The notes beneath the pieces are model-generated. The model was given only the letters and a program-made list of their open reading frames with translations. It searched no databases and was not told where the DNA came from. From a virus, in the IMG/VR virus record IMGVR_UViG_3300006752_000028, positions 1 through 62,833 of that record: 62,833 nucleotides of DNA. One strand, written 5' to 3'. Made by a program: the position numbers and the translations under genes. This document shows positions 1-50,369 of this stretch, piece after piece (position 1 is the stretch's first letter; every line of letters begins with the position of its first letter).

Positions 1-308
1 ACTTTTGGTCTAGGTACATCTATAAATTTATCTACATATCTTTTTTTGTAAACTGTCTTAATTACTTCAACTGGCTTTTCAACTATTTTTATAATTGTAT
101 CAGTCTGTACTTTAGTTTTAAGTTTAGTAACGTACTCTATTACTTTTTTCTCTACTACTTTATTTACTATTACAGTATCTATTATTACTTCTTTTTTTAC
201 TATCTCTACAGGTACTTCTTTAACTACCTCTATTGGATTCAAAATAAGATAAGCAATACCTATTAAGAGTCCAACTATTATTACAATTTTTTTATCTATT
301 TTTTTCAT
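1..308 (-). CDS. Single-pass membrane protein, 3' part beyond window
   Basis: An open frame starts with ATG at 308-306 and runs off the left edge, giving 102 visible codons without a stop. Residues 1-5 are charged, residues 8-24 form one hydrophobic transmembrane helix, and the rest is a Val/Lys/Glu/Ile-rich extracytoplasmic segment with repeated 'KPVEV' and 'VVEK'-like patterns. It starts 3 nt after the stop of the acidic-repeat protein, so it belongs to the same envelope operon. The layout (anchor plus a Lys/Val stalk) resembles the protein at 2905-3180. Function is unknown; a periplasm-spanning stalk or spanin-like role is only a guess. Confidence 0.75.
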   Translation of the reverse strand, partial: MKKIDKKIVIIVGLLIGIAYLILNPIEVVKEVPVEIVKKEVIIDTVIVNKVVEKKVIEYVTKLKTKVQTDTIIKIVEKPVEVIKTVYKKRYVDKFIDVPRPK

Positions 309-310
309 AC

Positions 311-1750
311 TTATAATGGTATTTTAGACCCTATCATGAAAGAATGCATGATTGGAACAAATTCGTTGCTACTATATATCATTGTCCATCCTACATTAAA
401 AGAGAAAGACTTAGTTAATTGTACTGTAAAAGAGTTAGCAAGTATACCTATAAAGTCTTTGCTAACAGAACCAAATGCTAAACTAGTATCTGTTTTATCT
501 ATAAAGCTCATCGGTGTTTGTGCTCCAATTATAGCTGGAGAATATAATACTCTGTTATGTACTTTAAAAGAATTAGCATACAAAAAGTTATACCCTAATG
601 AATACATATTAGGTAGTTTATCTCCTAATTGATCTTTACCAAACATAGTAGAGTAATTTATACCTAATCCGACAGTCCCATACTTACCTAAAGGTTTAGT
701 TCTTGTTAATGAAATACCTACTGCATTCATAGTATAGTTTCTCATATATGAAATTGATGCTCCATCTACCCATGAAACTTGATAGTCTTCTGTTAGAGAT
801 ACTTTAGATGTACCGATATTTAATCCTACTTGTTTTAAGTTATCATACACCATTAACGAAGCTGAATTAGTTCTATCTCCATATATAGATGACTGGGAAG
901 CACCTATGCTCATAATGGTATTATAACTTAAAGTTAAAGACTGTTGTTGTAACATATCTGCTTTAAGTTGAATAGGCATAAACTTTTTTTCTTTTTTCTT
1001 TTTATCCTCTTCTTCCTCTTCATCCTCTTTAGATTCTTCCTCGCTTTCCTCTTCTTCCTTTTCCTCTTCTTCTTTTTCTTCTTCTTTTTCCTCTTCTTTA
1101 GTTTCTTCTTCCTCTTTAGATTCTTCTTCACTTTCACTTTCTGATTCACTTTCTGTTTCTTCTTCTCCCGAACCTTCACCTTCTGATTCTCCTTCACCTT
1201 CTCCAGAACCTTCTCCTTCACCGCTACCTTCTCCCTCTCCAGATCCTTCACCATTTCCTTCTCCAGATCCTTCACCATTTCCTTCTCCAGATCCTTCACC
1301 ATTTCCTTCTCCGGAACCTTCACCTCCACTTCCGGAATCACCTCCTCCAGAGTTATCATTAGAACTACCTCCTGTATCTCCTCCTCCGCTGCTATCACTA
1401 GAACCACTTCCTGATGAGCTACTTGAAGAACTACTAGAACTATTAGTAGCATTGTTAGCTGCATTTTGAGCATTTTGTGCTTGGGTAGTAGCTGACGAAC
1501 AAGGAGAAAGTGCTGCCCACCATGCATACTTTTGCTGTAGCCATTGCTGCAATTCTCCGTTAATGTATTGTTGGTAAGTAAATATTTTAGCTTCGTCGTA
1601 AAACGCTACTACAGCAGAACCGGTGCTAAAGTTAGCAGTCACTATCTGTACTTCTCCTGTACATCTATCTATAAATGTTTGAGTAAATGTCTGACCATAG
1701 GTATAGTTTGCCAGTAGCACTAAAAGGAATATGCAAAACTTTCTTTTCAT
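311..1750 (-). CDS. Exported acidic-repeat protein, partner of CsgG-like gene
   Basis: This 479-aa protein has a clear signal peptide (residues 1-20, ending YGQ). An N-terminal domain with two cysteines (about 21-85) begins TFTQTF and precedes an Ala/Asn/Gln and Ser-rich linker. Residues about 110-255 are low complexity: Ser/Gly, then GEGSGEGN-type repeats, then an almost pure Glu/Lys/Ser tract. The C-terminal ~220 residues have alternating polar/hydrophobic strands that look like an outer-membrane beta-barrel. It lies 3 nt downstream of the CsgG-like gene, an arrangement I recall from marine T4-like phages. Role unknown; an outer-membrane or secreted partner of the CsgG-like protein is inferred. 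Confidence 0.8.
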   Translation of the reverse strand: MKRKFCIFLLVLLANYTYGQTFTQTFIDRCTGEVQIVTANFSTGSAVVAFYDEAKIFTYQQYINGELQQWLQQKYAWWAALSPCSSATTQAQNAQNAANNATNSSSSSSSSSSGSGSSDSSGGGDTGGSSNDNSGGGDSGSGGEGSGEGNGEGSGEGNGEGSGEGNGEGSGEGEGSGEGEGSGEGEGESEGEGSGEEETESESESESEEESKEEEETKEEEKEEEKEEEEKEEEESEEESKEDEEEEEDKKKKEKKFMPIQLKADMLQQQSLTLSYNTIMSIGASQSSIYGDRTNSASLMVYDNLKQVGLNIGTSKVSLTEDYQVSWVDGASISYMRNYTMNAVGISLTRTKPLGKYGTVGLGINYSTMFGKDQLGDKLPNMYSLGYNFLYANSFKVHNRVLYSPAIIGAQTPMSFIDKTDTSLAFGSVSKDFIGILANSFTVQLTKSFSFNVGWTMIYSSNEFVPIMHSFMIGSKIPL

Positions 1751-1753
1751 TCA

Positions 1754-2473
1754 TTAGTTTTCAAATATACGCTTCCTTATCATTCTTGCAACTATTCTTG
1801 CAGAGGCTGTTTCTAAAGCTTTCCGTGTAGTAACCCCTATAGCTGATTGTCTAAATTTTATTTCTTCTACATCCAGACCTAATAAACCTTCTTGAGTCTT
1901 TACTGTATTAGCTTCTCCTAAACCTGAACCTACAAAGTAAGTTCCTCTTTCGGCATCTGTAAATCTAACTTGTAGTCCTAATCTAGTAGTTTGAGTTTGT
2001 TTAGAACCGTCCGATAAAGAAAGTACTTCATCTTCTGAGACTGAGAAGTCATATATCTCTATAGTTACAAAGTACTTAGCTAACATTATCTTCCCTACAC
2101 CGTACACTTCATTCTGAGATATTCCTTTTCTCGAAGCTACCCACTGTGTTTTCATTCTGTCTTTTATTGCTGATTTCTCTTCAACAAATTCAAAACGATT
2201 CGTCCAATCTAAGTACTCTATTACCATATTTGTTACTCCTAAACCTATACGTGCATCTTTTAATTCAGGCCACATTTCGTAAACCTCATCCGATGCGGAG
2301 ATTTTTAATAAAGCAATTGGTATCATATCTCCATAATAATCAGAGACATCATCAATTGATTTCTTTTTTTCAAATTCAGCTTGGTATGTTTCTGCTTTTA
2401 TTTTACCAACAGTTTGTCCGTAGGAAAAAGTATATACCAAGAGTGTTACTAATAGTGCTAAAATGTTTTTCAT
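1754..2473 (-). CDS. CsgG-like curli secretion / outer-membrane protein
   Basis: The 239-aa protein has a signal peptide ending SYGQ at residue 20. It then carries the CsgG-family pattern: a 'GLGVTNMVIEYL' helix, an 'RFEFVEEK' strand, a Tyr/Phe-rich beta segment and a C-terminal helix with 'ARIVARM'. CsgG forms the outer-membrane channel for curli subunits in bacteria, and homologues are known in marine T4-like phages with no settled role. There is no lipobox Cys after the signal peptide, unlike bacterial CsgG. It sits in a run of exported and membrane proteins, so a function in the host envelope (pore, lysis or surface alteration) is plausible. Confidence 0.75.
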   Translation of the reverse strand: MKNILALLVTLLVYTFSYGQTVGKIKAETYQAEFEKKKSIDDVSDYYGDMIPIALLKISASDEVYEMWPELKDARIGLGVTNMVIEYLDWTNRFEFVEEKSAIKDRMKTQWVASRKGISQNEVYGVGKIMLAKYFVTIEIYDFSVSEDEVLSLSDGSKQTQTTRLGLQVRFTDAERGTYFVGSGLGEANTVKTQEGLLGLDVEEIKFRQSAIGVTTRKALETASARIVARMIRKRIFEN

Positions 2474-2474
2474 A

Positions 2475-2654
2475 TTATCCTAATGTATCAAATATTCCAA
2501 ATGTTGCGGTGCTAACTGATTCAGGGTTAGTACATATATGATATAGTAATCCTATCAATCCTAGAATAGCTAAAGCAAGTAATGAACCTGACCATACTTT
2601 GAGCAAGATATTCATATACTTATTTGGATGCATTCTTTCTTTAAAAATATTCAT
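2475..2654 (-). CDS. Small single-TM protein
   Basis: This is a 59-aa protein with a basic N-terminus (MNIFKERMHPNKY) and one strong hydrophobic helix (about residues 20-42). The frame is open upstream to 2735, but the longer start would overlap the 76-aa gene before it by over 70 nt, so I chose the ATG at 2654-2652, 8 nt after that gene's stop. It ends 1 nt before the CsgG-like gene starts. The function is not recognised; a small membrane protein in a lysis or envelope operon. Confidence 0.6.
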   Translation of the reverse strand: MNIFKERMHPNKYMNILLKVWSGSLLALAILGLIGLLYHICTNPESVSTATFGIFDTLG

Positions 2655-2662
2655 TATTATTA

Positions 2663-2893
2663 TTAATGTGTGTTCTTTATATCTTCTGGAAGTCTCCAAC
2701 CATGTTTTTTCATTTGCCATGCATACCATGTGCAAAGTATTACAAAGCTAGCTAACCATCCTGCTGCTAATAATTTATTTTCCTGCATTTCTTGACCTAG
2801 AGCTAAAAAATAAACATTAAGGTATATTACTATACCCATAAAGCCTATTATTTGTCCCCATACTTTCCACCATTTATTAAATTTATTTTTCAT
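2663..2893 (-). CDS. Two-TM small membrane protein
   Basis: The 76-aa protein has two predicted membrane helices (about residues 13-34 and 41-61) with a short acidic turn between them. Basic residues at the N-terminus and after TM2 suggest both ends are cytoplasmic. Size, topology and placement in a cluster of membrane proteins are compatible with a holin, but no family is recognised. It starts 11 nt after the stop of the 91-aa membrane protein. Confidence 0.6.
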   Translation of the reverse strand: MKNKFNKWWKVWGQIIGFMGIVIYLNVYFLALGQEMQENKLLAAGWLASFVILCTWYAWQMKKHGWRLPEDIKNTH

Positions 2894-2904
2894 AATTAAA
2901 AAGT

Positions 2905-3180
2905 TTACCAGTCCATTGTTTCTTCTACCTCTTTCTTTTTTTCTACTTTAGGTTTAACTACAGGTTGAATAATAGTTTTTGTTATTACTAAAGTATCTTT
3001 AATACTATTTTTTGGAACTGAGATGGTTTGTTCCATCATTGGAGGTTCTTCTGTTGGGTTAAATATAGCTTCCATATTAGTAACTAGTAAACCACCTCCT
3101 GCAGTTATTACTATACCTATAGTAGCGACTATTTGATTTTTAATTTGGCTAAAGAAGCCTTCTTTTTTTTCTTCTGACAT
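2905..3180 (-). CDS. Single-TM protein with charged extracytoplasmic tail
   Basis: The 91-aa protein has a Lys/Glu-rich cytoplasmic start, one Gly-rich membrane helix (about residues 17-35), and a 55-residue tail of Thr/Val/Ile and Lys/Glu with 'KPKVEKKKEVEE' ending in MDW. The tail resembles the stalk of the protein at the left edge of the window. It lies 6 nt downstream of the lipoprotein gene. An anchor/lipoprotein pair is reminiscent of two-component spanins, but the resemblance is architectural only. Confidence 0.6.
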   Translation of the reverse strand: MSEEKKEGFFSQIKNQIVATIGIVITAGGGLLVTNMEAIFNPTEEPPMMEQTISVPKNSIKDTLVITKTIIQPVVKPKVEKKKEVEETMDW

Positions 3181-3186
3181 TATTTA

Positions 3187-3561
3187 TTACTTTACTACAA
3201 ATGATGTTCTACCTAAAACAATATGGAACTCACTTGTTAATTCCAATAGGTACGCACTTTTATCTAGAGTGCTTACATATACTTTTAAAATATTATCCCC
3301 TTCGGTACCATTTAGTTTTTCTTGAGAGATTAATTCATTGGTCATTGAATGTCTAATTTTAACTCTATAAACTCCATCTGCAGGTAATTTAACATTCATT
3401 GCAACTCTTTCAGTTACTATATTATTTTCTAATTTGATACCAACTAATTCATCCATCATCAATGCTTGAGGTACTTCTTGTACCGGTTCTACTATAAAAT
3501 CCTCATCTCTTACACATCCTAAAAGAGTCAGTACTACTAAACTTATAATTAATTTTTTCAT
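3187..3561 (-). CDS. Putative lipoprotein
   Basis: This 124-aa protein has a type II signal peptide: MKK, a hydrophobic stretch and an LLGC lipobox with Cys at residue 16, followed by acidic residues. The mature part (about 108 aa) is rich in beta-strand pattern and has no recognised domain. It lies between the anchor protein (2905-3180) and the cohesin-like exported protein, in the same tight operon. Membrane-attached periplasmic or outer-membrane placement is predicted. Confidence 0.7.
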   Translation of the reverse strand: MKKLIISLVVLTLLGCVRDEDFIVEPVQEVPQALMMDELVGIKLENNIVTERVAMNVKLPADGVYRVKIRHSMTNELISQEKLNGTEGDNILKVYVSTLDKSAYLLELTSEFHIVLGRTSFVVK

Positions 3562-3570
3562 GTTTTTATC

Positions 3571-5277
3571 TTATTGTATATTAAAAATTACTTTTGAACC
3601 ATCCTGTTTAACAGCTTCAGTGAAACTAAATGTTATTAACCCTGATGTGTTATTTAATTCCTCATTAGGTGTAAATATTAGTTTGTAAGCTACTCCTGTT
3701 TTTATGGTTACTTCTGCTGATTGATCTAATGAACCTACACTTACAGTCGCATCTTGCTCTCTATGATTAGCAAAGTTTGTCATTTCATTACCTGTATCGA
3801 ATATAGCATTGTCTAAAGTTAGAATAGTTTCATCATACTTAACACTAAACTGTGCCCCGATTAAATCCTCTTCTTCTATGTTTATAGATAAATGTACTTT
3901 CCCTTCTATCAATTCAGTATTAATATCTAAATTAGCAGTTGTAGGTGTTTGAAGTGCTTTAGTAGTTAAAGACATTCTAGCTGAAGATGTTGATAAAGCA
4001 GATGATTCTGCTGTTGGGGTATATGAATGTGAAAAATCTACATCTCCTATTAATGCATGCCCGAAGTTAAAAATCTTAGTACCATCTGTAGGTGTAAAAA
4101 TAAAGTTTTGACCAAAGTAATAATCGTCTGTTGATACCCCTAAATTTTCTACTCTACCCCAGACATCTTTTGCTCCGTTAGTATCTGATGTAAACCATTC
4201 ACTTAGTCCTTCTACTCCCTGAATATGACCTAATGCCTCATATGAATCATCAAAGTCTATGTTACCGCTGTTTGTCAATTCACCTAGAAGGTACTGTATA
4301 CTGTAATCAAATGTATTACTAGATCCTGCTCCTGGTCCGGAACCGCCGCTTGATGCTGCGATTGCCTGTTGAAATATTATATATACGTCTGTTACTGTAA
4401 TGACATCGTCCAACCAGTCTGCTTGATCACTAACTCCTAATTCTAAGTAGTAACTCTCTCCTATCGATAAATCTCCTCCAGCAAATATCATTTGTCCATT
4501 TGCATCTACATTACCAGTAAGAAGAGCTTCTCCAGTTTTACCGTTTACTCCATTTGCAGCATATATTTTATACGTAAAATCTGTAGCATAATCTGCTTTA
4601 GCTTCTGAGTTTAGATTTAATGTAACGGTACCTGCATTTACACCTGTTACTGCTCCTTGATTTTCTATATTTAGGTTTATACCTGAAGGACCTACTCCTA
4701 CTTCGTATAAGTTGGTGTCTGCTGTGGAAGTATTATCTGTTGCTTTCATCCATGATAATCTAGTTAGTTCAGTATAGTCATCATAGCCAGTCCCTTGTCT
4801 GTCTTTAATTTTAAATCTTACCTCTAATAAAGTTTCTCCATGAGATATAGCTGTGTTTGCTTCTTGAATTGTAATTCTTTCTACTGACCAATCGTTACTA
4901 GTACTGTAAGAGCCGTTACCGCGATTTAACCAACCTTCTTTATATTGAAAATCTAAATCTGCAGGTGATTGAGCAACTCCAGCAAATTGAGTTAAGACGT
5001 TAAAAGAGTAACCATCCCAGTGAGTTAAATTCTTATTAGCTGATGAATTATCAGGAAGTTTAAAAGTATGATCTATTTTCTGTAATAATTTATTATTGTA
5101 TTGATAATCAAATAACATAAAATAAACATCTGCATCACTGTCACTGAGTGTGTTAAATTTAACTGTTATAGTATCCCCTACTATAAAAGGTGCTGTATCG
5201 GTATAACTGTGATCTAATTTAAGATCTTGACCTACAGTTAACATAGGTACTAATAATAATAAGAGTAATTTTCTCAT
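3571..5277 (-). CDS. Large exported protein with cohesin-like C-terminal domain
   Basis: The 568-aa protein has a signal peptide (residues 1-16, ending TVGQ). The mature part is beta-rich: an N-terminal Ig-like region, a central region with a Gly/Ser linker near residue 315 (GGSGPGAGSS), and a C-terminal ~115 residues with a cohesin-like look ('GAQFSVKYDETILTLDNA' followed by 'LIFTPNEEL...GLITFSF'). Its start overlaps the stop of the 170-aa exported protein by 4 nt (ATGA). Such domains usually mediate protein-protein or surface binding. Role in this phage unknown; probably a surface or periplasmic partner of the CsgG-like module. Confidence 0.7.
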   Translation of the reverse strand: MRKLLLLLLVPMLTVGQDLKLDHSYTDTAPFIVGDTITVKFNTLSDSDADVYFMLFDYQYNNKLLQKIDHTFKLPDNSSANKNLTHWDGYSFNVLTQFAGVAQSPADLDFQYKEGWLNRGNGSYSTSNDWSVERITIQEANTAISHGETLLEVRFKIKDRQGTGYDDYTELTRLSWMKATDNTSTADTNLYEVGVGPSGINLNIENQGAVTGVNAGTVTLNLNSEAKADYATDFTYKIYAANGVNGKTGEALLTGNVDANGQMIFAGGDLSIGESYYLELGVSDQADWLDDVITVTDVYIIFQQAIAASSGGSGPGAGSSNTFDYSIQYLLGELTNSGNIDFDDSYEALGHIQGVEGLSEWFTSDTNGAKDVWGRVENLGVSTDDYYFGQNFIFTPTDGTKIFNFGHALIGDVDFSHSYTPTAESSALSTSSARMSLTTKALQTPTTANLDINTELIEGKVHLSINIEEEDLIGAQFSVKYDETILTLDNAIFDTGNEMTNFANHREQDATVSVGSLDQSAEVTIKTGVAYKLIFTPNEELNNTSGLITFSFTEAVKQDGSKVIFNIQ

Positions 5278-5786
5278 AATAAGTTTTTAATAATTTTTTC
5301 ACATACCTTTTTTAAAGCTATGCTTGCTGTTTGTTGGTTAAATGTTCCATCTTCTGTAACTACAAGGGTGCTGGTAGAAATAGTCTTACTCGTACCTTTT
5401 TGAGTAGTTCTCTTTTTAACCTTACCTTTGACTTCTAATTCACCTATTGCTATTATCTGCGTCAGTGATACATCTTTGTGGAGAATACCTATATTATTCC
5501 CAATATTTTTTATATCAAAAAAGACCAATCTAACATTTACCTTAGTAGATGCTTGGTCTGATAGATCATAATCTAGATCCATTAATAATTCTTCTAGTAT
5601 ATTTCGGACACCCATTGCCAGGTTTCTATTACCTGCAAACTTGCCCATTCTGATTTCGTTGGTGACTTCACCGACCATAATAAGATCCTGGCCGTCTATC
5701 TGTACCTCTTTGTTAGAACCTGTTGGAAGCAGTAACAAGATACAAATAACGAATATTTTGATTACGTTAAGAGTAGCAATTTTCAA
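5274..5786 (-). CDS. Exported alpha/beta protein of the envelope module
   Basis: The 170-aa protein has an N-terminal hydrophobic segment (residues 8-21, ICILLLLPTG) that is a signal peptide or anchor. The body has the helix-strand pattern 'GVRNILEELLMDLDYDLS', several long strands, and a C-terminal helix 'ASIALKKVCEKIIKNLL'. This recalls periplasmic LpoB/YajG/CsgG-type anticodon-binding-like folds, but identity is not assured. It is the first gene of the envelope operon proper; about 90 nt separate it from the upstream two-TM protein. Confidence 0.6.
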   Translation of the reverse strand: MKIATLNVIKIFVICILLLLPTGSNKEVQIDGQDLIMVGEVTNEIRMGKFAGNRNLAMGVRNILEELLMDLDYDLSDQASTKVNVRLVFFDIKNIGNNIGILHKDVSLTQIIAIGELEVKGKVKKRTTQKGTSKTISTSTLVVTEDGTFNQQTASIALKKVCEKIIKNLL

Positions 5787-5877
5787 AGTCTTTATTTAAA
5801 AAATTACTAAAACCTTTAAAAGGTAACGCTTATAAGAAACTATTGTTAGGGGAACTATTAGATATAACTGAGGAGTA

Positions 5878-6135
5878 TTACTCTCCTTTTTTACCGCCAA
5901 AGATCTTCCCTGCTTCTGCGATACCGAAACAGCCTAATGTAATGAATAAGAAAGAGTCATAAATAAATTCCTGTATTACCAAGTCTCTACCTATAAATCC
6001 TGTTATAATATCTGCCGAAGCAAATAGTACCATTACTGCGAATGCAGCAAAACCAACGACAGATTTTTCGTTGATATCATTATTGTCTTTAAATATGTTA
6101 CCAAATTTCATACAAATTGATTTAAATTTTTTCAT
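5878..6135 (-). CDS. Two-TM membrane protein, holin candidate
   Basis: The 85-aa protein has a basic N-terminal 25 residues, two hydrophobic helices (about 27-47 and 57-78) and a Lys-rich C-terminus (GGKKGE). This is the size and topology of a class II holin. It is the first gene after a strong terminator at 6192-6219, so it probably starts its own transcript. No holin family signature can be verified by eye, so the role is tentative. Confidence 0.6.
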   Translation of the reverse strand: MKKFKSICMKFGNIFKDNNDINEKSVVGFAAFAVMVLFASADIITGFIGRDLVIQEFIYDSFLFITLGCFGIAEAGKIFGGKKGE

Positions 6136-6191
6136 AATGTAACTTAATTAGATGTAACTCATTTATAATAAATACAACTCGAAAACGAAAC

Positions 6192-8194: not shown

Positions 8195-9826
8195 TTACAT
8201 CATCATAGAAGGATCTATTCCATTTGTTTTATCCTCCTCTTTCCGATTTGATATTACTGCTTCGGTTATTAACATTGTACTAGCTACAGATGCAGCATTC
8301 TCTAGAGCTAGTCGGGTTACTTTAGTTGGGTCGATAATACCAGATGCGAACATATTTACATATTTTTCGTCTCTAGGGTTATAACCTGACCAGAAGTCTC
8401 CCTCTTCTTTAATGTGTTCTTCTATACCTCCTATATCATCGTTAGTGTATCCTGCATTAAGAAGGATTTTATAGAAAGGTCTTTCAATAGCTGAGATTAC
8501 AATTTCGTATCCTGTATGATATTCGTAAGGTTGATCTCCTATTAGGTCTGTGAGTCTTAGAGCAGAGTTTAATAATGCTATACCTCCTCCAGGTAAAATA
8601 CCTTCCTCTAAGGCTGCTTTTGTAGCATGGAGTGCATCGTCAACTCTATCCTTTTTCTCTTTCATTTCAACTTCAGTATGACCTCCTACAAATACAATTG
8701 CTACTCCTCCAATAAATCTAGCCAATCTATCTTGAAGTGTTTCGATTTCATATGGAGATTTACTATCATCAATTTGAGTTTTAATCTCTTCTACTCTTTT
8801 TGTAATAGATTCTTCTTCTCCTTTAGCATCAATAATGGTAGTAGAGTCTTTAGTGATAGTTACTTTCTTAGCTTCACCAAACCAATCAGAGTTAAATTTC
8901 TCTAATTTCATACCTCTTTCTGTTGATACTACTGTACCTCCTGTTAGTACTGCAATATCTTCTAATACTGCTTTCTTTCTGTCTCCAAACTCAGGAGCAT
9001 TTACAGCTGCTACAGATAGATTACCTCTCATCTTATTAACTACTAAGGTAGACAACGCCTCTCCTCCAATATCATCTGCAATGATAAGAAGACTCTTGTT
9101 CTGACTAGAACATGCTTCTAAGATAGGAAGTAACTCCTTAACTTGATTAAGCCTTTTGTCTGTAATTAATATCAACGGAGATTGAAGAACAGCCTGCATT
9201 GACGAATTGTCCGTAACAAAATATGGAGACTTATAACCTCTGCTAAATTGCATTCCTTCTACCGTTTCTAGGTAGGTTTCTCCTGTTCGGGATTCCTCAA
9301 TCGTGACTACACCGTCTCTGCCTACTTTATCCATGGCTGTGGAAATTAACTCACCTACTTCTGTGTCGTTATTGGCAGATATCGTAGCTACTTGCTTGAG
9401 CTGCTCTTCATCCGTGATATCTTTTGATTCTTCTTTTAAATAAGTTACTACATCTTTTACTGCAGAGTCAATACCTCTTTTGATATCAACTGCATTAGCA
9501 CTTTTTTTAAGTCTATCTATCCCTTCTGTAAGGATTGATTGTGCTAATAATGTAGATGTTGTAGTACCATCTCCTGCTTGATCTGCAGTTTTAATAGCTG
9601 CTTGTTTAACAATTTGTGCTCCTATATTCTCTACTTTACTTTTTAGTTCAATTGCTTTTGCAACTGTAACTCCGTCTTTAGTAGAGATAGGGTTACCTTG
9701 TTCTTGTTCGATAATTACATTCCTTCCTGAGGGTCCTAATGTAGCCGTAACAGCTTCTGCTAATTTATCTACTCCGTCCGCTAGTTTATGTCTAGCCTCT
9801 TTTGAAAAAACTAATTTTTTACTCAT
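8195..9826 (-). CDS. groEL: Chaperonin GroEL
   Basis: The 543-aa protein is a full-length group I chaperonin. The ATP site shows 'GDGTTT' near residue 86 (catalytic Asp) and 'DRVDDALHATKAALEEG' near 393 (the second catalytic Asp). 'LGPSGRNV' lies near residue 31 and 'LPGGGIALL' near 413. The tail ends DPSMMM in place of the usual GGM repeats. It would fold phage proteins with the adjacent GroES; its start overlaps the groES stop by 8 nt. Complete GroEL/GroES pairs are uncommon in phages. Confidence 0.97.
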   Translation of the reverse strand: MSKKLVFSKEARHKLADGVDKLAEAVTATLGPSGRNVIIEQEQGNPISTKDGVTVAKAIELKSKVENIGAQIVKQAAIKTADQAGDGTTTSTLLAQSILTEGIDRLKKSANAVDIKRGIDSAVKDVVTYLKEESKDITDEEQLKQVATISANNDTEVGELISTAMDKVGRDGVVTIEESRTGETYLETVEGMQFSRGYKSPYFVTDNSSMQAVLQSPLILITDKRLNQVKELLPILEACSSQNKSLLIIADDIGGEALSTLVVNKMRGNLSVAAVNAPEFGDRKKAVLEDIAVLTGGTVVSTERGMKLEKFNSDWFGEAKKVTITKDSTTIIDAKGEEESITKRVEEIKTQIDDSKSPYEIETLQDRLARFIGGVAIVFVGGHTEVEMKEKKDRVDDALHATKAALEEGILPGGGIALLNSALRLTDLIGDQPYEYHTGYEIVISAIERPFYKILLNAGYTNDDIGGIEEHIKEEGDFWSGYNPRDEKYVNMFASGIIDPTKVTRLALENAASVASTMLITEAVISNRKEEDKTNGIDPSMMM

Positions 9827-10127
9827 TACTTTCTGGTTTAATTGATGCTAAAATTTCCTTGTCTGCTGTTATGAAGTATTCAGTACCTTCAAAATCAATT
9901 CTAATAGAACCAATTTTTGGTATTAGTACGATATCTCCTACTTTAGCATTAACTCTAATAAATTGTCCGAACTCGGTCTGTCGGCCAGGTCCTGTAGCGA
10001 TAACTTCTCCCATTTCTGGTCTCTCTTTTCCTAAATCAGGAATAACTATGTTACCGTACATTTGTTCGTCTTCTTCGATAGGCTTTATAATAACTCTATC
10101 ATTGAACGGTGTAAGTGTTTTTGACAT
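9819..10127 (-). CDS. groES: Co-chaperonin GroES
   Basis: The 102-aa protein shows the GroES pattern: 'PFNDRVIIKPIEEDE', a short mobile-loop segment with the Ile-Val-Ile GroEL-binding triad ('GNIVIPD'), then 'GEVIATGPGR', 'VGDIVLIP' and a C-terminal strand. It caps GroEL for folding. It precedes groEL in the transcript, overlapping it by 8 nt, and has a class A promoter-like motif at 10149-10163. Confidence 0.95.
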   Translation of the reverse strand: MSKTLTPFNDRVIIKPIEEDEQMYGNIVIPDLGKERPEMGEVIATGPGRQTEFGQFIRVNAKVGDIVLIPKIGSIRIDFEGTEYFITADKEILASIKPESNE

Positions 10128-10148
10128 ATATAACTTTGTTTATTTATA

Positions 10149-10163
10149 TTAATATAAGAATAA
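10149..10163 (-). promoter_or_regulatory. Class A promoter-like motif before groES
   Basis: The minus strand reads TTATTCTTATATTAA, 21 nt upstream of the groES ATG. Confidence 0.6.
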
Positions 10164-10172
10164 TAATGATAA

Positions 10173-10189
10173 GATCAAACTTGAGAGCG
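10173..10189. repeat. Inverted repeat arm, 3' side of hsp20
   Basis: GATCAAACTTGAGAGCG on the + strand is the inverted copy (one extra A) of the arm at 10665-10680; together they bracket the Hsp20 gene. Confidence 0.75.
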
Positions 10190-10198
10190 TAAAAAAAC

Positions 10199-10612
10199 CT
10201 ATTTAATTTTCAAAGTCTTTAACTCTGAACCTTTACTGAAAGGTATACTAATACGAAGAAGTCCGTTTTCGAATGAAGCTTCTGCTTTATTCAATTGGAA
10301 CTTGCTATCGATTTTCCAACCTAAATTAAATGCTCGTTTAGCAATACCTCTATGGTAAAACTTACTATCAAGCTCTGTTTTAGGTTTATCGTAAATTACT
10401 CTAAGAATGTTTCCTTGGATTTGAATCTCAATGTCCTCTTTATCGATTCCTGTACAAGCAATATCTATACCAATACCGTTAGGTGCTTCGTAAATATCAA
10501 CAGGATGTGGAACTTTGGATTCTTCTAAAGGACGGAAGTGTCCTTGTGACTGTAAAAAATTTCTGACAAGTATGTCAAAAGGGTTGTTGTTTAATAATTC
10601 TAATGTACTCAT
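10199..10612 (-). CDS. Small heat-shock protein, Hsp20 / alpha-crystallin family
   Basis: The 137-aa protein has an alpha-crystallin domain: 'VDIYEAPNGIGIDIACTGIDKEDIEIQIQG' leading strands, a short loop, 'FNLGWKID', then the family signature 'ASFENGLLRISIPF' (GxLxI-type) before the C-terminus. Holdase chaperones of this class are common in marine T4-like phages. It lies upstream of groES-groEL, forming a chaperone cassette. A class B motif at 10689-10702 and a pair of inverted repeats flank it. Confidence 0.92.
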   Translation of the reverse strand: MSTLELLNNNPFDILVRNFLQSQGHFRPLEESKVPHPVDIYEAPNGIGIDIACTGIDKEDIEIQIQGNILRVIYDKPKTELDSKFYHRGIAKRAFNLGWKIDSKFQLNKAEASFENGLLRISIPFSKGSELKTLKIK

Positions 10613-15496: not shown

Positions 15497-16060
15497 TTAT
15501 TTATTAATATAATCAATCCACTTTGTTCCTTTTGTATCCGAGTTCGGAAATACAAACGATTTAGTTACATCACCTATAGTAATGATTTTTCGAAATCCTG
15601 AAGGGATAGTAGCACCAGTTGGTAATACTTCTAACTTCCCTTCAAATAGGACTTCTACTCTCACTTTAACTTCTTTTCCAAAAAAGTTTGCTGCGTCTCT
15701 TTCAAAAGACTCTAATTTACTCCATTGACCTCTATTCAATCCTTCATGCTGTAAAGCAGAGTTGATATAAGAAAAGGTTTTGAGTAATGTTTCTTTATCA
15801 CAACTAAAGGCTGCTGCTGGAGCTAGATGACCTTTGTCGTATATATTATTTCTATAATCCTCATTATCTGAGGTTTTAATATCTTTGGGTACCCAGAAAT
15901 CCATACCTTGTCGTGATGCTTTGCCGTTAGGACATTTTACAGTATATTCAACCCAAAGAGGTTGTTGGTATTCTTCACTGTATTCTACAGTATAAAGACC
16001 ATTATCTACTATTTGAGCGACAGATGATACTGAAAATAAAAGTGCTATTATATATTTCAT
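15497..16060 (-). CDS. Exported DNA/RNA non-specific endonuclease (NucA type)
   Basis: The 187-aa protein has a signal peptide (residues 1-16, SSVAQ) and a beta-beta-alpha metal nuclease core: 'YDKGHLAPAAAF' near 76-87 corresponds to the family's DRGH motif (catalytic His), and 'NSALQHEGLNRGQWSKLE' supplies the metal Asn and following Arg. It would cut DNA or RNA outside the cytoplasm. An exported nuclease is unusual in a phage; degradation of extracellular DNA or of DNA from competing phages at the envelope is possible. Neighbours are an NTPase and QueF, 3-6 nt away. Confidence 0.85.
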   Translation of the reverse strand: MKYIIALLFSVSSVAQIVDNGLYTVEYSEEYQQPLWVEYTVKCPNGKASRQGMDFWVPKDIKTSDNEDYRNNIYDKGHLAPAAAFSCDKETLLKTFSYINSALQHEGLNRGQWSKLESFERDAANFFGKEVKVRVEVLFEGKLEVLPTGATIPSGFRKIITIGDVTKSFVFPNSDTKGTKWIDYINK

Positions 16061-16617: not shown

Positions 16618-17160
16618 TTATAAACCAAATACTTTCTTTAGAAATATAGTCCACATATATAATGATCTATCTTTAAATACCCCCCACATTTCTTCTTCTG
16701 TAATGTTAAAAGCATTGAATCTTTCTTCTGCTAGTATCTTACCTTCATCTACCCCTGCATCAACTTTATGAAGAACACATCCCATAACTGGGTATTTTCC
16801 TTCAAATGCTCTAATCTGTGGATCTTTTCCTTTAAGTTCTGGGTATTCAGTTATAAGACCTGGATGTCCGTTAAAGATAGAGAACTTTTCGCATACTTCT
16901 TTCGGCATAATACGTAACCAACCATGTAAGGTAATTATTGCTTCCGGAAAATATACTAGTATTTCTTCATAATCCTCTAAAGTAGGTTTATTATTTAAAG
17001 TGAAAAAACCATTTTCTACTATTCTAGGATCTATCTCTCTAAGTCTTTCAGGTCTCTCGTTAGTATAAATTCTATCAGGCCATTTACCAAGTGACTTAGC
17101 TAAATCAGCTATCTCACTACCAGTCTGACTAAAGAATGCTATCCAAGGTTTAGTTGCCAT
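16618..17160 (-). CDS. dpdN: Formyltransferase, probable DpdN (PreQ1 formylation)
   Basis: The 180-aa protein has the core of the PurN/Fmt formyltransferase family: 'ITLHGWLRIMP' near 76-86, catalytic Asn97-x-His99 in 'FNGHPGL', and 'HKVDAGVDEGKIL' with the catalytic Asp at about 138. It would use 10-formyl-THF. Its start overlaps the DpdA stop by 11 nt. A formyltransferase (DpdN) was proposed from phage genomes to convert DNA PreQ1 into 7-(formylamino)methyl-7-deazaguanine, and the presence of QueF and DpdA here fits. An ordinary PurN is shorter on context evidence. Confidence 0.82.
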   Translation of the reverse strand: MATKPWIAFFSQTGSEIADLAKSLGKWPDRIYTNERPERLREIDPRIVENGFFTLNNKPTLEDYEEILVYFPEAIITLHGWLRIMPKEVCEKFSIFNGHPGLITEYPELKGKDPQIRAFEGKYPVMGCVLHKVDAGVDEGKILAEERFNAFNITEEEMWGVFKDRSLYMWTIFLKKVFGL

Positions 17161-17953
17161 TCGTAAACCATTTAAATTTCTGTATATTGTTTTTAATCGT
17201 TCCTAATTGCTTCATATCAATATCTGAGTTTATTAGTTCGAATAGTTTTTGTCTTTCTTTAGACCAAAGTCCATCTGAACCATATGTTATACCTTTTATT
17301 CCGTGAACAACAGGGTTAGATGTATCTAGTGAATAAATCCAATCATAATCTGAATGCTTGTAGAAGCTAAATTCTTGAGGTAGCCCACAACCTAGTAAAT
17401 GATGAGGTTTATGTTTATTAATTATACCGTCTTTAAGTAAATCTCCCAGTAACTTAACACGTCCTAGCATCCAACTAACATACTTGTTAGCATGAGGTAC
17501 AGAAGTGCTGTAATACGAATAATCAAATGATATAGCTATCATATCTACATCTGCTGATTTATTCATATAGTTATAGCAATCTACTATTTCATCATAAGTC
17601 TTACCTTGAACTACTCCTATCTTTCCACTTCCTTCGTATCCAAGACCTTTATTATTCCAATCTTCCATTTGATCGCAAGTTTTAGTAGCGTCTTCTAAAG
17701 CATCAGGAACAATGTACCATGAAGGTCTAAAGTCTTTTACCCATTTATCAAACTTCGCAGCATCAAAAGCTTCTTCTAATTCGAAAATAGAGTTATCTAG
17801 TATAATCTCTCTACCTTTGTCTCTAGCTCTTTTAAATTGATTGAGGTATGCTTCATCTTCCTCAAATAAATGAACTAAAGCATAATCATAATCAGTAAGT
17901 TTTTGAACTTCTTCAAATACCTCTTTGGGACTTTCGTGTGCTATTTTTATCAT
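17150..17953 (-). CDS. dpdA: DpdA, DNA-guanine transglycosylase (TGT-like)
   Basis: The 267-aa protein is a short relative of tRNA-guanine transglycosylase. Asp53 in 'ILDNSIFE' and Asp210 in 'YSLDTSNP' occupy the positions of the two catalytic aspartates, with 'VPDALED', 'IGVVQGKTY' and 'LLGCGLPQEF' of the TIM barrel between. DpdA proteins exchange guanine in DNA for a 7-deazaguanine base after replication. The subfamily cannot be fixed by eye. It overlaps the formyltransferase (11 nt) and the upstream 71-aa gene (4 nt), so all three are one translational unit. Confidence 0.88.
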   Translation of the reverse strand: MIKIAHESPKEVFEEVQKLTDYDYALVHLFEEDEAYLNQFKRARDKGREIILDNSIFELEEAFDAAKFDKWVKDFRPSWYIVPDALEDATKTCDQMEDWNNKGLGYEGSGKIGVVQGKTYDEIVDCYNYMNKSADVDMIAISFDYSYYSTSVPHANKYVSWMLGRVKLLGDLLKDGIINKHKPHHLLGCGLPQEFSFYKHSDYDWIYSLDTSNPVVHGIKGITYGSDGLWSKERQKLFELINSDIDMKQLGTIKNNIQKFKWFTNGN

Positions 17954-18165
17954 ATATTACTATCTAAATTTGAATCGTCTAATTGACTTAAGTCTGGTTG
18001 TAAGCTAGTTAATTCTTCTGAAAGAGTAGCTATTGCTGCGTCTAATTGTTTTATTTGAGCAGCTTCTATTGCTTCTTCTACTGCTTGTTTAGCTACAGAT
18101 AATGGTACTACCTGCAGTTTACTTTCAAAATCAAAGAAAGCGTTTTCGTCTAGATTGATTGCCAT
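17950..18165 (-). CDS. Small acidic coiled-coil protein
   Basis: The 71-aa Ala/Glu/Leu-rich protein (MAINLDENAFFDFESK...) is predicted to be mainly helical with a coiled coil in the middle. No family is recognised. It overlaps the DpdA start by 4 nt (ATGA) and starts 1 nt after the MazG-like gene. Confidence 0.6.
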   Translation of the reverse strand: MAINLDENAFFDFESKLQVVPLSVAKQAVEEAIEAAQIKQLDAAIATLSEELTSLQPDLSQLDDSNLDSNI

Positions 18166-18166
18166 A

Positions 18167-18688
18167 TTAAAAGAATTTTTTTAAGTTAGGTCTAAAGTAA
18201 TTAATACTTTTCATTACTTTTTTATCTCTTGTTCGATAAACAATGTACCGTCCCTCCTCGATTTTTTCAAAATGACAGGCCTCACCTTGTTCCTCAGCTC
18301 TTTTGCTGACACTGCGTATGGCCTCTTCTTCAGTTTTACAAGCTTTAGACATATTGCTCGCTTGTACTTCTTGATATGCTGGCCATATCTTATCCTTAAG
18401 GCCGTGTAACATAACACCGTTCCCAAGGGAAACATAAGCAATGTCGCACAAAGCATCCAAAACTTCCACAATGTCTCCGTTTTCGCAAGCCTCTCTATAC
18501 TCTTCGAGCTCTTCAAGGATGAAATCGTAAACGAACTGCCACTCTTTTTTTTCTGGTATGTTTGGTTCATAATTATTTGGTTTACTAAAAGTATCGTTAA
18601 ATATCTCAACTTCATCTACAAAAGGTACTGAAGGAGAAGATGGTACTTTATAATTCTCTTCTACAAAAAGTGATAACTGTTTTCCCAT
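18167..18688 (-). CDS. MazG-like all-alpha NTP pyrophosphohydrolase
   Basis: The 173-aa protein has the MazG/dUTPase-like helical metal site: 'EELEEYREACENGD' followed by 'EVLDALCDIAYV', and the phage-typical 'EVQASNMSKACKTEEEA'. Enzymes of this superfamily hydrolyse NTPs or dNTPs to monophosphates. An N-terminal ~45-residue extension of unknown role precedes it. It could trim unmodified or damaged nucleotides or alter host ppGpp-type signalling. The neighbouring genes are DpdA and a DUF4494-like gene. Confidence 0.82.
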   Translation of the reverse strand: MGKQLSLFVEENYKVPSSPSVPFVDEVEIFNDTFSKPNNYEPNIPEKKEWQFVYDFILEELEEYREACENGDIVEVLDALCDIAYVSLGNGVMLHGLKDKIWPAYQEVQASNMSKACKTEEEAIRSVSKRAEEQGEACHFEKIEEGRYIVYRTRDKKVMKSINYFRPNLKKFF

Positions 18689-18689
18689 T

Positions 18690-18893
18690 TTAATATACTT
18701 TAATTATTCTAGATTCTGCAAGGCTTATAATCTTAAAACTAGTTTCACCTAACTCCTCTAGCATTTTATACGTTTTAGCTTCTGCTTCTGTTCCAGTCAT
18801 AGCATCTACTAAATATATTTCTTTTACTTTCTGTACTCTACCTCTATCGTTTTCTCTTTCGAACTGGGTAGTAACTTGCCAATAGTTTGTCAT
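18690..18893 (-). CDS. DUF4494-like small protein
   Basis: The 67-aa protein begins MTNYWQVTTQFER and contains 'KEIYLVDAMTGTEAEAK', a pattern I recall from the DUF4494 family common in Bacteroidetes and their phages. Function unknown. It supports the Bacteroidetes affiliation. It ends 1 nt before the MazG-like gene. Confidence 0.65.
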   Translation of the reverse strand: MTNYWQVTTQFERENDRGRVQKVKEIYLVDAMTGTEAEAKTYKMLEELGETSFKIISLAESRIIKVY

Positions 18894-18907
18894 AATTATA
18901 TTATTTA

Positions 18908-19621
18908 TTAATGTTTACAAATACTTGCTAATTCTATATTCTTATAGAACTCTGCTTTTGCTGAATCTTCGTTTAAGAACGCTCCTGTTAGTTTAGCAGT
19001 TTGCATTGATGCTCCTCTATGCTTAACTCCTCTACAGCTAACACAGTTATGGGTAGCTGATATCATTACTGCAACTCCTAAATTACCTTCACATATCTTA
19101 TCTACTGCATTATGTATAGCTACAGTTAATTGTTCTTGAATAGCTCCTCTTCTACCGAATTGTTCTACTATCCTATTAAGTTTAGATAGTCCTACTACTT
19201 TTCCATCCTCTGAAGCTATATAAGCAATGCTTACATTACCACCGATTGTTTGGTGATGATGTGAACACATCGACTGAACTGGTATATTGCTTTCTTGTAC
19301 TATACCGTCGTATCCGTCTGATGGAAATGCTGTTATACGGTCTAGAGGGTTATACCTTCCGGCCCATAAATCATTAACATATGCTTTAGCTACTCTCATT
19401 GGGGTATCAGATGAATTAGGATCATCTTTATAATCACATCCTAACGCAGTTAAAAACTCTGCGTATGCTTTTGCTGCTCTTTCTATAATTACATGCTTCT
19501 CATGTTCTGTTAACCTTGCTTCAGGTCCTTCTAATTCTTGCTTTGCAGCTAATTGACTTGATATACCATTTGCATATCCTGCTTTTACTAATTCTGTTCC
19601 GTCTATAAACTTTTTAGGCAT
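18908..19621 (-). CDS. folE: GTP cyclohydrolase I (FolE)
   Basis: The 237-aa enzyme catalyses the first step of deazaguanine synthesis, GTP to dihydroneopterin triphosphate. Zinc and catalytic residues are visible: Cys/His in 'MCSHHHQTIGG' and the second zinc region 'ATHNCVSCRGVKHRG'. 'DDPNSSDTPMRVAKAYVNDL' is the family N-terminal signature. It lies between the PRTase and DUF4494 genes. A preQ1-I-like leader at 19625-19658 and a class A motif at 19668-19682 precede it. Confidence 0.95.
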   Translation of the reverse strand: MPKKFIDGTELVKAGYANGISSQLAAKQELEGPEARLTEHEKHVIIERAAKAYAEFLTALGCDYKDDPNSSDTPMRVAKAYVNDLWAGRYNPLDRITAFPSDGYDGIVQESNIPVQSMCSHHHQTIGGNVSIAYIASEDGKVVGLSKLNRIVEQFGRRGAIQEQLTVAIHNAVDKICEGNLGVAVMISATHNCVSCRGVKHRGASMQTAKLTGAFLNEDSAKAEFYKNIELASICKH

Positions 19622-19624
19622 AAT

Positions 19625-19658
19625 ATTTAATTTGTTTTATTGAGGTTCTACGACTCAT
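19625..19658 (-). promoter_or_regulatory. preQ1-I riboswitch-like leader of folE
   Basis: The coding strand contains a small hairpin (TGAG/CTCA) enclosing TCGTAGAAC, followed by an A-rich tail AATAAAACAAA and then the folE start. The order GUCG-AG-AACC, stem, AACAAAAC-type tail matches the Thermoanaerobacter preQ1-I aptamer pattern. Loop-tail pseudoknot pairing is weak here. Closely related to the leader at 21949-21978. Confidence 0.45.
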
Positions 19659-19667
19659 TTGTTAATA

Positions 19668-19682
19668 CAATATACGATTTTT
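19668..19682 (-). promoter_or_regulatory. Class A promoter-like motif before folE
   Basis: The minus strand reads AAAAATCGTATATTG, about 10 nt upstream of the riboswitch-like hairpin; it shares the CGTATATTG variant with the motif at 21997-22011. Confidence 0.5.
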
Positions 19683-19685
19683 AAT

Positions 19686-20090
19686 TTAATTATCCAAATA
19701 ATCTTGAATAGGTTTTGAATTTTCTTTTTCCCAAGGGTAGACTACCCAGCCGAAATCATCGTCTATTTCTTCTGCATAGTATTCTGGTTTTGCTTTTGAT
19801 GATGTTTTATAGTGTAGAGTAGCAAACTTAGGATTAAACATTTCGTCTCTCCACTTTAAAATTGTATCTCCACTATCTGCTATATCATCTATAATTAATA
19901 ACCTAGGATAGTGGTTACTTCTATACTCCATATATGGAATCTCAAATCGATGAGAATACATAATAGCGAGTATGGTACCTCCTCTGGGTATTCCTGTTAC
20001 ATAGTCTATCTCTCCTTTGCATTTTTCGTGTATAATATCTAAGAGTCTATTGATATCGTCCCACGTTAGAAAAACTTTTTTTACTGCCAT
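19686..20090 (-). CDS. Phosphoribosyltransferase
   Basis: The 134-aa type I PRTase has the PRPP-binding signature 'RLLIIDDIADSGDTI' (about residues 64-78) and an upstream 'GIPRGGTILAIM' pyrophosphate loop. The size and the PRGG loop resemble xanthine/guanine PRTases. It could recycle bases or handle guanine released by DpdA, which is inferred only from context. Its start is overlapped by the 57-aa gene upstream by 10 nt. Confidence 0.85.
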   Translation of the reverse strand: MAVKKVFLTWDDINRLLDIIHEKCKGEIDYVTGIPRGGTILAIMYSHRFEIPYMEYRSNHYPRLLIIDDIADSGDTILKWRDEMFNPKFATLHYKTSSKAKPEYYAEEIDDDFGWVVYPWEKENSKPIQDYLDN

Positions 20091-20254
20091 GTATGGTTCA
20101 TTACCCAGTTACCAGTAGAGTAATTTGCTATAGATTTACTACCTACCGATTGTAGCTTCTCTTTTAAGTGGTCCCATTGTTGAGGAGTAATATTGTAATG
20201 GTGAACTCCTTCTGTGAAGCCTCGTAACCATTCTATAAATTGTGATTCATTCAT
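20081..20254 (-). CDS. Small conserved phage protein (57 aa)
   Basis: A 57-aa frame opens with ATG at 20254-20252 and stops TAA at 20083-20081. The sequence FIEWLRGFTEGVHHYNITPQ followed by 'QWDHLKEKL' is a pattern (FIEWLxGF...LTxxQWxxIKEKL) frequently seen in small proteins of Bacteroidetes and marine phages. Function unknown. It overlaps both neighbours (ATGAATGA with the 44-aa gene, 10 nt with the PRTase). Confidence 0.7.
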   Translation of the reverse strand: MNESQFIEWLRGFTEGVHHYNITPQQWDHLKEKLQSVGSKSIANYSTGNWVMNHTWQ

Positions 20255-20381
20255 TTTCTATATAACTTTTTAATTTATCTATTAATACTAATACTTCGTC
20301 TGGTTCCATTGTTATAGCACAGCAAGTATTTATGTTTTCTGCTACTTCCTCTAATACCTCTAAAGCTTCATCTTTAGTCAT
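20247..20381 (-). CDS. Small acidic protein (44 aa)
   Basis: A 44-aa frame starts at the last base of the QueE stop codon (TAATG) and ends 8 nt into the next gene. It is acidic and helical (MTKDEALEVLEEVAEN) with a Cys-Cys pair at residues 20-21. No family is recognised. The exact start/stop overlaps on both sides are the main support. Confidence 0.6.
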   Translation of the reverse strand: MTKDEALEVLEEVAENINTCCAITMEPDEVLVLIDKLKSYIENE

Positions 20382-21169
20382 TATACCTCTCTTTGATCTT
20401 CAAAAGCAATAATATGAGGTCTCCAAGTCATTCTATATCCGTTATCTCTAACCCAATCAAATAATACTGGGTATGATTTAAATAATGCTTCTCTAGAATC
20501 TCCTGCAGGCATAAACCATACTTTTTCAGATTTAACATCCAAAGTTTTTATACAGTCCATTATTTCAGCTAATGCTTCTTGATCTTTACCGTCCCATACT
20601 GGTTTAATATGGAAATCAGAATGATACTCTATTGACTGCTTAATTGCCTCATAATTAAGTCTAAATTTATTATGACGTTTTACCATTCTCTCATCTGTAA
20701 TTGCACCTTGAGGAGTTTCTACTCCAACGACTGGAACAGAATTAGAAAACTTAGGGCTAATAGATAACAAATTAATAGGGTAATCTGTGGGTAGGAAATG
20801 ACTACCTTCAGTTTCGATAGTAATAAAGATATTATTTTCATGTGCAAAATGTGTTAATTCGTTTACTAAAGCTGGATGCATAGTAGGAGAACCTCCTGTC
20901 AACATCATCTCTTTTATATGAGGATTCTTTTCGTACATCGCAATTATATCTTTAAAATTGAAGTCTCCTTTTTCCGGGTGTATACTTGTATACCAACTAT
21001 CACACCATCCTCCTTCTCCGAAGTAACATCTATGGGTACATCCTGTAGTTCTTATTACAACTGTTGGGTAACCTGCTCTTGAACCTTCTGATTGTACTGC
21101 TGTATATATTTCTACGATAGGTAGGTTTTTATCGTAATCTTCTATTCTCTTTAATTGCTTGTGTGCCAT
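20381..21169 (-). CDS. queE: QueE, 7-carboxy-7-deazaguanine synthase (radical SAM)
   Basis: The 262-aa radical SAM enzyme makes CDG from CPH4. It has 'RTTGCTHRC' with cluster cysteines followed after seven residues by 'WCDSWYT', so the cluster motif is CX3CX7C, wider than the usual CX3CX2C; a two-Cys shift for metal binding is possible but the WCD is typical of QueE. 'MLTGGSPTMHP' is the glycine-rich SAM-binding motif and 'SISPKFS' is conserved. It lies 20 nt downstream of QueD. Confidence 0.92.
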   Translation of the reverse strand: MAHKQLKRIEDYDKNLPIVEIYTAVQSEGSRAGYPTVVIRTTGCTHRCYFGEGGWCDSWYTSIHPEKGDFNFKDIIAMYEKNPHIKEMMLTGGSPTMHPALVNELTHFAHENNIFITIETEGSHFLPTDYPINLLSISPKFSNSVPVVGVETPQGAITDERMVKRHNKFRLNYEAIKQSIEYHSDFHIKPVWDGKDQEALAEIMDCIKTLDVKSEKVWFMPAGDSREALFKSYPVLFDWVRDNGYRMTWRPHIIAFEDQREV

Positions 21170-21189
21170 ATATTTTTATTATATTAATA

Positions 21190-21678: not shown

Positions 21679-21688
21679 AATTTTTATT

Positions 21689-21946: not shown

Positions 21947-21948
21947 AT

Positions 21949-21978: not shown

Positions 21979-21996
21979 TTGTGCTATATATTTATA

Positions 21997-22686: not shown

Positions 22687-22704
22687 ATTTATATTTTTAG
22701 TATT

Positions 22705-49482: not shown

Positions 49483-49483
49483 A

Positions 49484-50356: not shown

Positions 50357-50369
50357 AACTTAATTTAAT

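Follow-up and report, generated by a model that had tools for sequence, protein, structure and literature searches.

A phage-borne gene module around a CsgG-fold protein, a candidate device for late surface display in Bacteroidota phages

What phage CsgG genes do has been an unsettled question since at least 2020. Here, we analysed a 62,833-nucleotide stretch of viral DNA (IMG/VR record IMGVR_UViG_3300006752_000028, positions 1 to 62,833), hereafter referred to as the window, and in particular an operon at its beginning that encodes an exported protein with a predicted CsgG fold. The window phage is contractile-tailed and T4-like, and is related to Flavobacterium phage immuto, with 69% identity in the DNA polymerase and 65-69% in the tail sheath. 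The CsgG-like protein, a predicted outer-membrane β-barrel protein (BARREL), a small membrane protein (TM91), cohesin-type proteins (COH) and a second exported protein (LPO170) form a near-obligate core. With about even confidence, we read this module as a late-expressed, mobile device of Bacteroidota phages for envelope export and surface display, which would probably coat the surface of the infected cell with a sticky scaffold just before phage release. To the question of phage CsgG it adds a distinct CsgG-fold family of Bacteroidota phages, which has obligate partners, predicted surface targeting, variable binding heads and a late-type promoter motif. Since immuto carries the module and is cultured with its host, Flavobacterium sp. 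LMO8, the question is testable. If true, the reading would make this a case of a lytic phage remodelling the exterior of its host late in infection by way of host export routes.

Layout, co-conservation and spread of the module

The operon runs on the minus strand from position 5786 to position 311, and its eight genes are tightly packed, with gaps of 0-17 nt or short overlaps. They are, in the order of transcription:

5274-5786, minus strand: LPO170, exported, core (62 of 73 loci; hhalign match to the CsgG-like family)
3571-5277, minus strand: COH1, exported cohesin-type scaffold protein, core (Pfam Cohesin)
3187-3561, minus strand: LIPO, lipoprotein with the signal C-V-R-D-E-D and a β domain weakly like the C-terminal domains (CTDs) of type IX secretion system (T9SS) cargo (definition of the lipoprotein export signal, hhalign)
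2905-3180, minus strand: TM91, protein with one transmembrane (TM) segment, a Pro/Lys/Gln-rich tail and a terminal Trp, core (69 of 73 loci)
2663-2893, minus strand: TM76, small protein with two predicted TM segments, found in type A modules (cluster 15 relatives in 12 loci)
2475-2654, minus strand: TM86, small protein with one predicted TM segment, 59 amino acids from the chosen start, ATG at 2654
1754-2473, minus strand: CsgG-fold exported protein, core, the most conserved member (AlphaFold2 model and Foldseek)
311-1750, minus strand: BARREL, core, with a signal peptide, an N-terminal domain, a low-complexity arm and a 12-strand outer-membrane β-barrel (70 of 73 loci; alignment, AlphaFold2, Foldseek)

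The alternative listed start of TM86, TTG at 2735, would overlap TM76. All the genes named in a first-pass annotation of this DNA are present, on the minus strand and in a compact operon. Of the five small TM genes that it counted, four lie within 311-6135 (2475-2654, 2663-2893, 2905-3180 and 5878-6135), and the fifth, at 3-308, which encodes an N-terminal TM segment, falls outside that range.

A search with the CsgG-like protein returned 71 viral contigs and the immuto isolates. Genes were clustered over 73 loci, consisting of the window, immuto and the 71 contigs, many of which are cut short. Of these loci, 72 contain COH proteins, 70 BARREL, 69 TM91 and 62 LPO170; apart from the core and the small TM genes of the module, no family was found in more than 29. 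Two layouts can be distinguished. Type A, that of the window, reads LPO170-COH1-LIPO-TM91-TMs-CsgG-BARREL, and a second COH-LIPO pair sometimes comes after it. In type B, the order is COH1-TM91-TM-CsgG-BARREL-COH2-LPO170, and a gene for an exported DNA/RNA endonuclease or for a small exported protein that has an HExxH-like motif is often present as well. The association also holds in the reverse direction. Starting from COH1, CsgG, BARREL, LPO170 and TM91 are all present in each of the 45 loci with at least 5 kb of downstream sequence; starting from LPO170, the remaining core genes are present in each of the 53 loci with at least 7 kb upstream. The locus sets retrieved with COH1 and with LPO170 partly overlap, and many of their contigs (e.g. 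L090, L129, L148 and L150) were missed by the CsgG search. The LPO170 scan of viral sequences was made with an alignment of the type B subset, the full family alignment being too diverse. The first-pass annotation had proposed a phage envelope module with many exported partners, to be given up if its genes were not co-conserved with CsgG. Co-conservation was found in all three directions, and the gene content around CsgG homologues shows a five-gene core that recurs far above chance, which strongly supports a coherent module of this kind.

Two of the accessory families deserve mention. The small exported protein with the HExxH-like motif, HESMH (cluster 7; L058:13195-13647 and 28 further loci), often stands after LPO170 in type B modules and is possibly a metallopeptidase. 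The window carries its own exported DNA/RNA non-specific endonuclease gene (15497-16060, minus strand; PF01223, E 1.5e-26), whose product has an apparent signal peptide; relatives stand beside or within the module in other phages, and the family occurs in 24 loci.

The module does not follow the phylogeny of its carriers. Contigs with a CsgG 86-87% identical to that of the window have a sheath that is just 51-52% identical, and the DNA polymerase of the window was undetected in them. Immuto, with its polymerase identity of 69%, has a CsgG that is 55% identical. Furthermore, immuto groups genes for a Zn-finger protein, a homologue of the small membrane protein TM85, an endolysin and a holin without the module, which lies ~30 kb off. 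In the window lineage, the TM85 gene precedes the module; endolysin and holin genes stand behind the module in relatives. Because the CsgG identities conflict with those of sheath and polymerase, and because the site differs in immuto, the comparison indicates that the module is a mobile cassette, horizontally transferred between unrelated contractile phages and landing at different insertion sites. The CsgG-like family was absent from 394 of the 395 Bacteroidia genomes sampled. Since the sole match was the centre metagenome-assembled genome itself (a 12.6 kb contig), the module family looks phage-specific.

The timing of expression can be approached through a promoter motif, TATTTATTATA in front of the window module. 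In immuto, the motif TATTTATWWTA has 15 coding-strand sites, against ~1.3 expected, and for 14 of them a gene start follows within 80 nt (p 3e-13, background fraction 0.106). Genes preceded by such late-type sites include those for the terminase, the sheath, tail fibres and tail spikes, and the module itself has two, before gp013 and gp014. All seven minus-strand sites of the window stand directly before gene starts, one before the module and most of the others before tail genes, which include the tail sheath (two copies) and the tail-tube-position and tape-measure-like genes. As the motif is common to tail and terminase genes and to the module, we infer that the module is expressed late in the window phage and in immuto. 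The promoter argument covers these two phages only: no enrichment of the motif was seen ahead of COH1 in the 69 loci, which come mostly from unrelated phages, a result to be expected with lineage-specific promoters. A second promoter-like motif, TTCTTATATT, has 10 minus-strand sites in the window against 1.3 expected (7469, 7697, 10151, 13087, 16600, 31499, 32177, 33337, 42694 and 45534). It lies upstream of many non-structural genes and is found in immuto too; together, the two motifs suggest two temporal promoter classes in Immutovirus-like phages.

Predicted structures and surface-targeting signals

The AlphaFold2 model of the CsgG-like protein has a mean predicted local distance difference test (pLDDT) score of 69.5. 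Its best Foldseek matches in the Protein Data Bank (PDB) are all structures of CsgG from Escherichia coli (E. coli) (4uv2/4uv3, E 3e-7, probability 1.00, TM-score ~0.47); PelC and further related folds rank next. Sequence searches gave a different result. Pfam CsgG (PF03783) has no match in the window protein and matches 1 of 25 family members at E 1e-3. Profile searches against PDB sequences returned chance matches only for the CsgG-like and LPO170 families, CsgG not being among them, and hhalign against E. coli CsgG gave a probability of 1.6%, the two being not alignable. The name CsgG-like, given in the first-pass annotation, is thus upheld by predicted fold and not by sequence search. Some type B members have a lipobox without a surface signal, as in CsgG. 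The model supports a CsgG fold, and the protein would be a candidate for a nonameric outer-membrane pore.

LPO170 has a hydrophobic N-terminal segment (residues 3-21) and is exported as had been annotated. It had been described as LpoB-like, and we revise its identity to a distant relative of the CsgG-like protein (hhalign E 7e-9, probability 96%). BARREL had likewise been recognised as an exported protein, with acidic repeats; alignment and AlphaFold2 indicate an outer-membrane β-barrel protein with a long disordered arm. Its parts are a signal peptide, a small N-terminal domain in which a pair of Cys residues is conserved, a low-complexity arm of Ser, Gly and Glu that varies in length, and a 12-strand barrel, for which Foldseek placed FapF best, followed by NanC. 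Pfam matches of BARREL to CDC45 and TrAA12 were rejected as low-complexity artefacts. TM91 combines a single TM segment with a polar tail rich in Pro, Lys and Gln, and its last residue is Trp in 69 of 69 members.

COH1 of the window matches Pfam Cohesin (PF00963, E 5.8e-7) above the cut-off in two stretches, and comparison with relatives suggests an X/CNA_B-like and a degenerate dockerin-like region preceding the C-terminal cohesin. In immuto, where the module genes are gp013-gp019, COH1 is encoded by two genes, split between the dockerin-like and the cohesin-CTD parts. X-dockerin parts are assigned there to gp013 and gp014, cohesins to gp014 and gp015, a CTD to gp015 and a lectin to gp013. 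Among 47 COH proteins, Pfam identified Cohesin in 23, Dockerin_1 in 10 (E<=0.01) and Por_Secre_tail in 15, and further members carry C-type lectin, PA14/GLEYA or LamG domains. The canonical dockerin calcium-loop motif was counted in 55/116, against 0.45 expected in shuffles. Type B COH1 scores 50.3 bits against the T9SS sorting domain TIGR04183, for which the cut-off is 23. The lectin/PA14 heads, which are carried by the downstream COH proteins, are hypervariable. In module pairs with 75-99% identical CsgG (median 88%), the downstream COH proteins have a median identity of 28%, compared with 64% for COH1, 64% for LPO170 and 45% for BARREL. A constant core with exchangeable binding heads would be the expected look of an adhesin-display device.

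The lipoprotein export signal (LES) of Bacteroidota is C-X-K-(D/E)2-X (PMC5080379). Most LIPO proteins carry C-x-[KRQ]-[DE]-[DE]-like signals that agree with it; the window protein has C-V-R-D-E-D after the lipobox, with Arg where the LES has Lys. LIPO was also considered as a true T9SS sorting domain, which is unsupported beyond a weak fold-level hint (hhalign to T9SS CTDs, E 5.5e-4, probability 30%).

Comparison with known systems and possible roles

Pelagimyophages and the Methylophilales phage Melnitz have a csgGF module, which also places a phage CsgG-fold protein in a small operon and whose role is unsettled, sibling capture and lysis having been proposed (PMC7029224, PMC9004378). The CsgG proteins of these phages are 37-40% identical to E. 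coli CsgG, whereas the present family cannot be aligned to it. Moreover, they are accompanied by CsgF and curlin-repeat proteins, in place of which BARREL, LPO170, TM91 and the cohesin-lectin proteins are found here. No Pfam or NCBIfam match to CsgE, CsgF or curlin was obtained among the window genes, and a search for CsgE in phage records found nothing. The module belongs neither to the curli systems nor to the csgGF type known from phages, and a homology to the curli genes of marine T4-like phages, which the first-pass annotation had mentioned, could not be shown by sequence. A T4-like marine Bacteroidetes virus contig also has adhesion genes, for which attachment of infected to uninfected cells was proposed, but this is one contig with true curli annotations (PMC7198788). 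The T9SS cargo of Cryophage (PMC7468147) and of BACON-domain phages (PMC6949934) resembles the COH proteins in its T9SS type A sorting domains, some PA14 domains and variability between variants; the passages on this cargo report single genes and describe no conserved CsgG-fold/barrel/cohesin-dockerin operon.

Outside phages, FapF, the exporter of the Fap functional amyloid, resembles BARREL in its architecture, with an N-terminal domain, a long flexible arm and a helix in front of a 12-strand barrel. No family match to a FapC-like amyloid was found among the window genes. Cellulosome scaffoldins likewise combine cohesins with X-like/dockerin pairs within the proteins of one operon, but the present module is phage-borne and has no enzymes, lectin heads replacing the glycoside hydrolases. 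No paper on phage cohesin/dockerin modules was found in the literature, nor any that describes this composition; the CsgG fold and the T9SS tag have phage precedents.

In a surface-display device, COH1 and its lectin-bearing partners would be exported and routed to the host exterior, as predicted from their sequences. Type B proteins would use the host T9SS where a sorting domain is present, and those of type A, as in the window, would travel in the company of surface-exported lipoproteins. Cohesin and dockerin modules would then connect scaffold units to adhesive heads. The CsgG-fold ring, its smaller relative LPO170 and BARREL may form a phage-encoded outer-membrane conduit or anchoring complex, held to the inner-membrane side by TM91. 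Export through CsgG and BARREL, and adhesion, are suggested by these predicted features. The displayed lectins could stick infected cells or debris to the glycans of neighbours, so that progeny meet new hosts; alternatively, receptors could be masked against superinfection. A more specific version is tentative, and we consider it less probable than the general reading: a dedicated secretion and display system built from the CsgG-fold ring, a periplasmic partner that is itself CsgG-like and a barrel of the FapF type, with TM91 as the link to the inner membrane. Late in infection, it would export dockerin-bearing lectins, which would insert into a scaffold of cohesins at the surface of the host, the dying cell becoming a trap for new hosts.

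Among the alternatives, an outer-membrane lysis step has the most in its favour, although we consider it unlikely. The CsgG-fold ring, BARREL and the small TM proteins would permeabilise or disrupt the outer membrane, replacing spanins. The late-type motif would suit this role, c28-type stalk proteins, which adjoin the module, look spanin-like, and in the window lineage the module stands between a lysis-locus TM gene and, in relatives, endolysin and holin genes. An endolysin or holin family lies within four genes of the module in 18 of 41 two-sided loci, but the other 23 have none, and with the immuto pair ~30 kb away, the constant association of a lysis cassette was not found. T9SS sorting domains, lectins, cohesins and dockerins would also be unneeded, yet they are constant or recurrent members. 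Superinfection exclusion, in which the displayed scaffold and envelope proteins would mask or block receptors against other phages, appears still less likely. It would account for the surface-targeting signals and the hypervariable lectin heads, and exported nuclease genes adjoin the module in some relatives. Exclusion usually acts early, and the late-type promoter motif makes this role less natural here. There is also essentially no PADLOC match to support it: none for the core proteins, and a single marginal one, of TM76 to gop (E 0.0089). A passage of the Cryophage report proposes exclusion likewise for its T9SS cargo (PMC7468147).

The remaining two explanations are improbable. The module could consist of nutrition-type auxiliary genes, forming a cellulosome-like or Sus-like scaffold and channel that improve the uptake of glycans or macromolecules during infection. 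An uptake role has been suggested for the pelagimyophage CsgG pore (PMC7029224), and cohesin/dockerin and carbohydrate-binding domains would fit it, but no glycoside hydrolase or SusC/D gene recurs with the core across loci, and late expression, if the motif is a guide, would leave little time for benefit. Least probable in our view are virion or virion-associated adhesins, with COH proteins on the particles aiding adsorption and the other genes acting as assembly helpers. The promoter motif is common to tail genes, and lectin and PA14 heads occur in tail fibres too. Against this, signal peptides, lipoprotein signals and T9SS sorting domains lead out of the cytoplasm, where virions are assembled, and neither in the window nor in immuto does the module lie near the tail genes. 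The first-pass annotation had offered lysis, secretion and superinfection exclusion as possible functions. Of these, secretion and surface display agrees best with the features of relatives, namely T9SS sorting domains, surface-export signals of lipoproteins and variable lectin heads; a role in lysis is possible and not favoured, and exclusion is possible as an outcome of display.

Several observations weigh against late surface display. The CsgG-like model is of medium confidence, and its second membrane hairpin is not resolved. The match of BARREL to FapF is the best among several similarly scoring barrels; with ~10% identity, and with NanC scoring nearly equally, the resemblance is not specific. 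The dockerin copy of window COH1 is degenerate and without a Pfam match. A T9SS sorting domain (TIGR04183 or PF18962) was not found in window COH1, and its route to the surface is suggested by LIPO and by relatives. The timing is read from a motif rather than from transcripts. Finally, for the csgGF phage module, which is unrelated to the present one, cell clumping was sought and not seen (PMC9004378).

Flanking genes and other observations

Upstream of LPO170 lie, in this order, the TM85 gene, the late-type promoter motif and a terminator-like hairpin, and downstream of BARREL is a gene truncated by the contig end:

6191-6221, minus strand: putative intrinsic terminator, ACGGGGC-loop-GCTCCGT followed by a T run, by direct reading of the sequence
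6164-6174, minus strand: late-type promoter motif TATTTATTATA, 29 nt 5' of the first gene, recognised as a motif common to tail genes
5878-6135, minus strand: TM85, small membrane protein, homologous to a lysis-locus gene of immuto and to module proteins elsewhere
3-308, minus strand: c28-type accessory protein with an N-terminal TM segment and a periplasmic stalk, assigned from relatives; the C-terminal β part is lost at the contig end

The hairpin would set the module apart from the preceding genes. TM85 had been counted as an operon member; its gene does adjoin the operon, but at 91 nt from position 5786 it is probably flanking rather than core here. Its immuto homologue, gp192 (42-45% identity), adjoins the endolysin and holin genes, where the module is absent, and TM85 in the window lineage is therefore probably a lysis-locus gene adjoining the module. 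In other phages, TM85 relatives occur within the module. Full-length relatives of the c28-type protein have ~176 amino acids and occur in 9 loci. The C-terminal part of this family (L007:10509-11039 and relatives) has about four amphipathic β-strands, following the N-terminal TM segment and a long periplasmic stalk, and the family could be an unusual one-protein spanin that reaches the outer membrane.

Elsewhere in the window, genes for a phage GroEL, a GroES and an Hsp20-like protein are found consecutively at 8195-10612 (minus strand). Genes resembling QueC, QueD and FolE, with a gene in the DpdA position, as annotated in immuto, lie at about 16618-23659 (minus strand) and represent a probable 7-deazaguanine DNA modification pathway. 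The lytic phage immuto (NC_055915) has an island of glycosyltransferase and sugar-biosynthesis genes at 49172-59988, which suggests remodelling of host surface polysaccharide beside the adhesin module.

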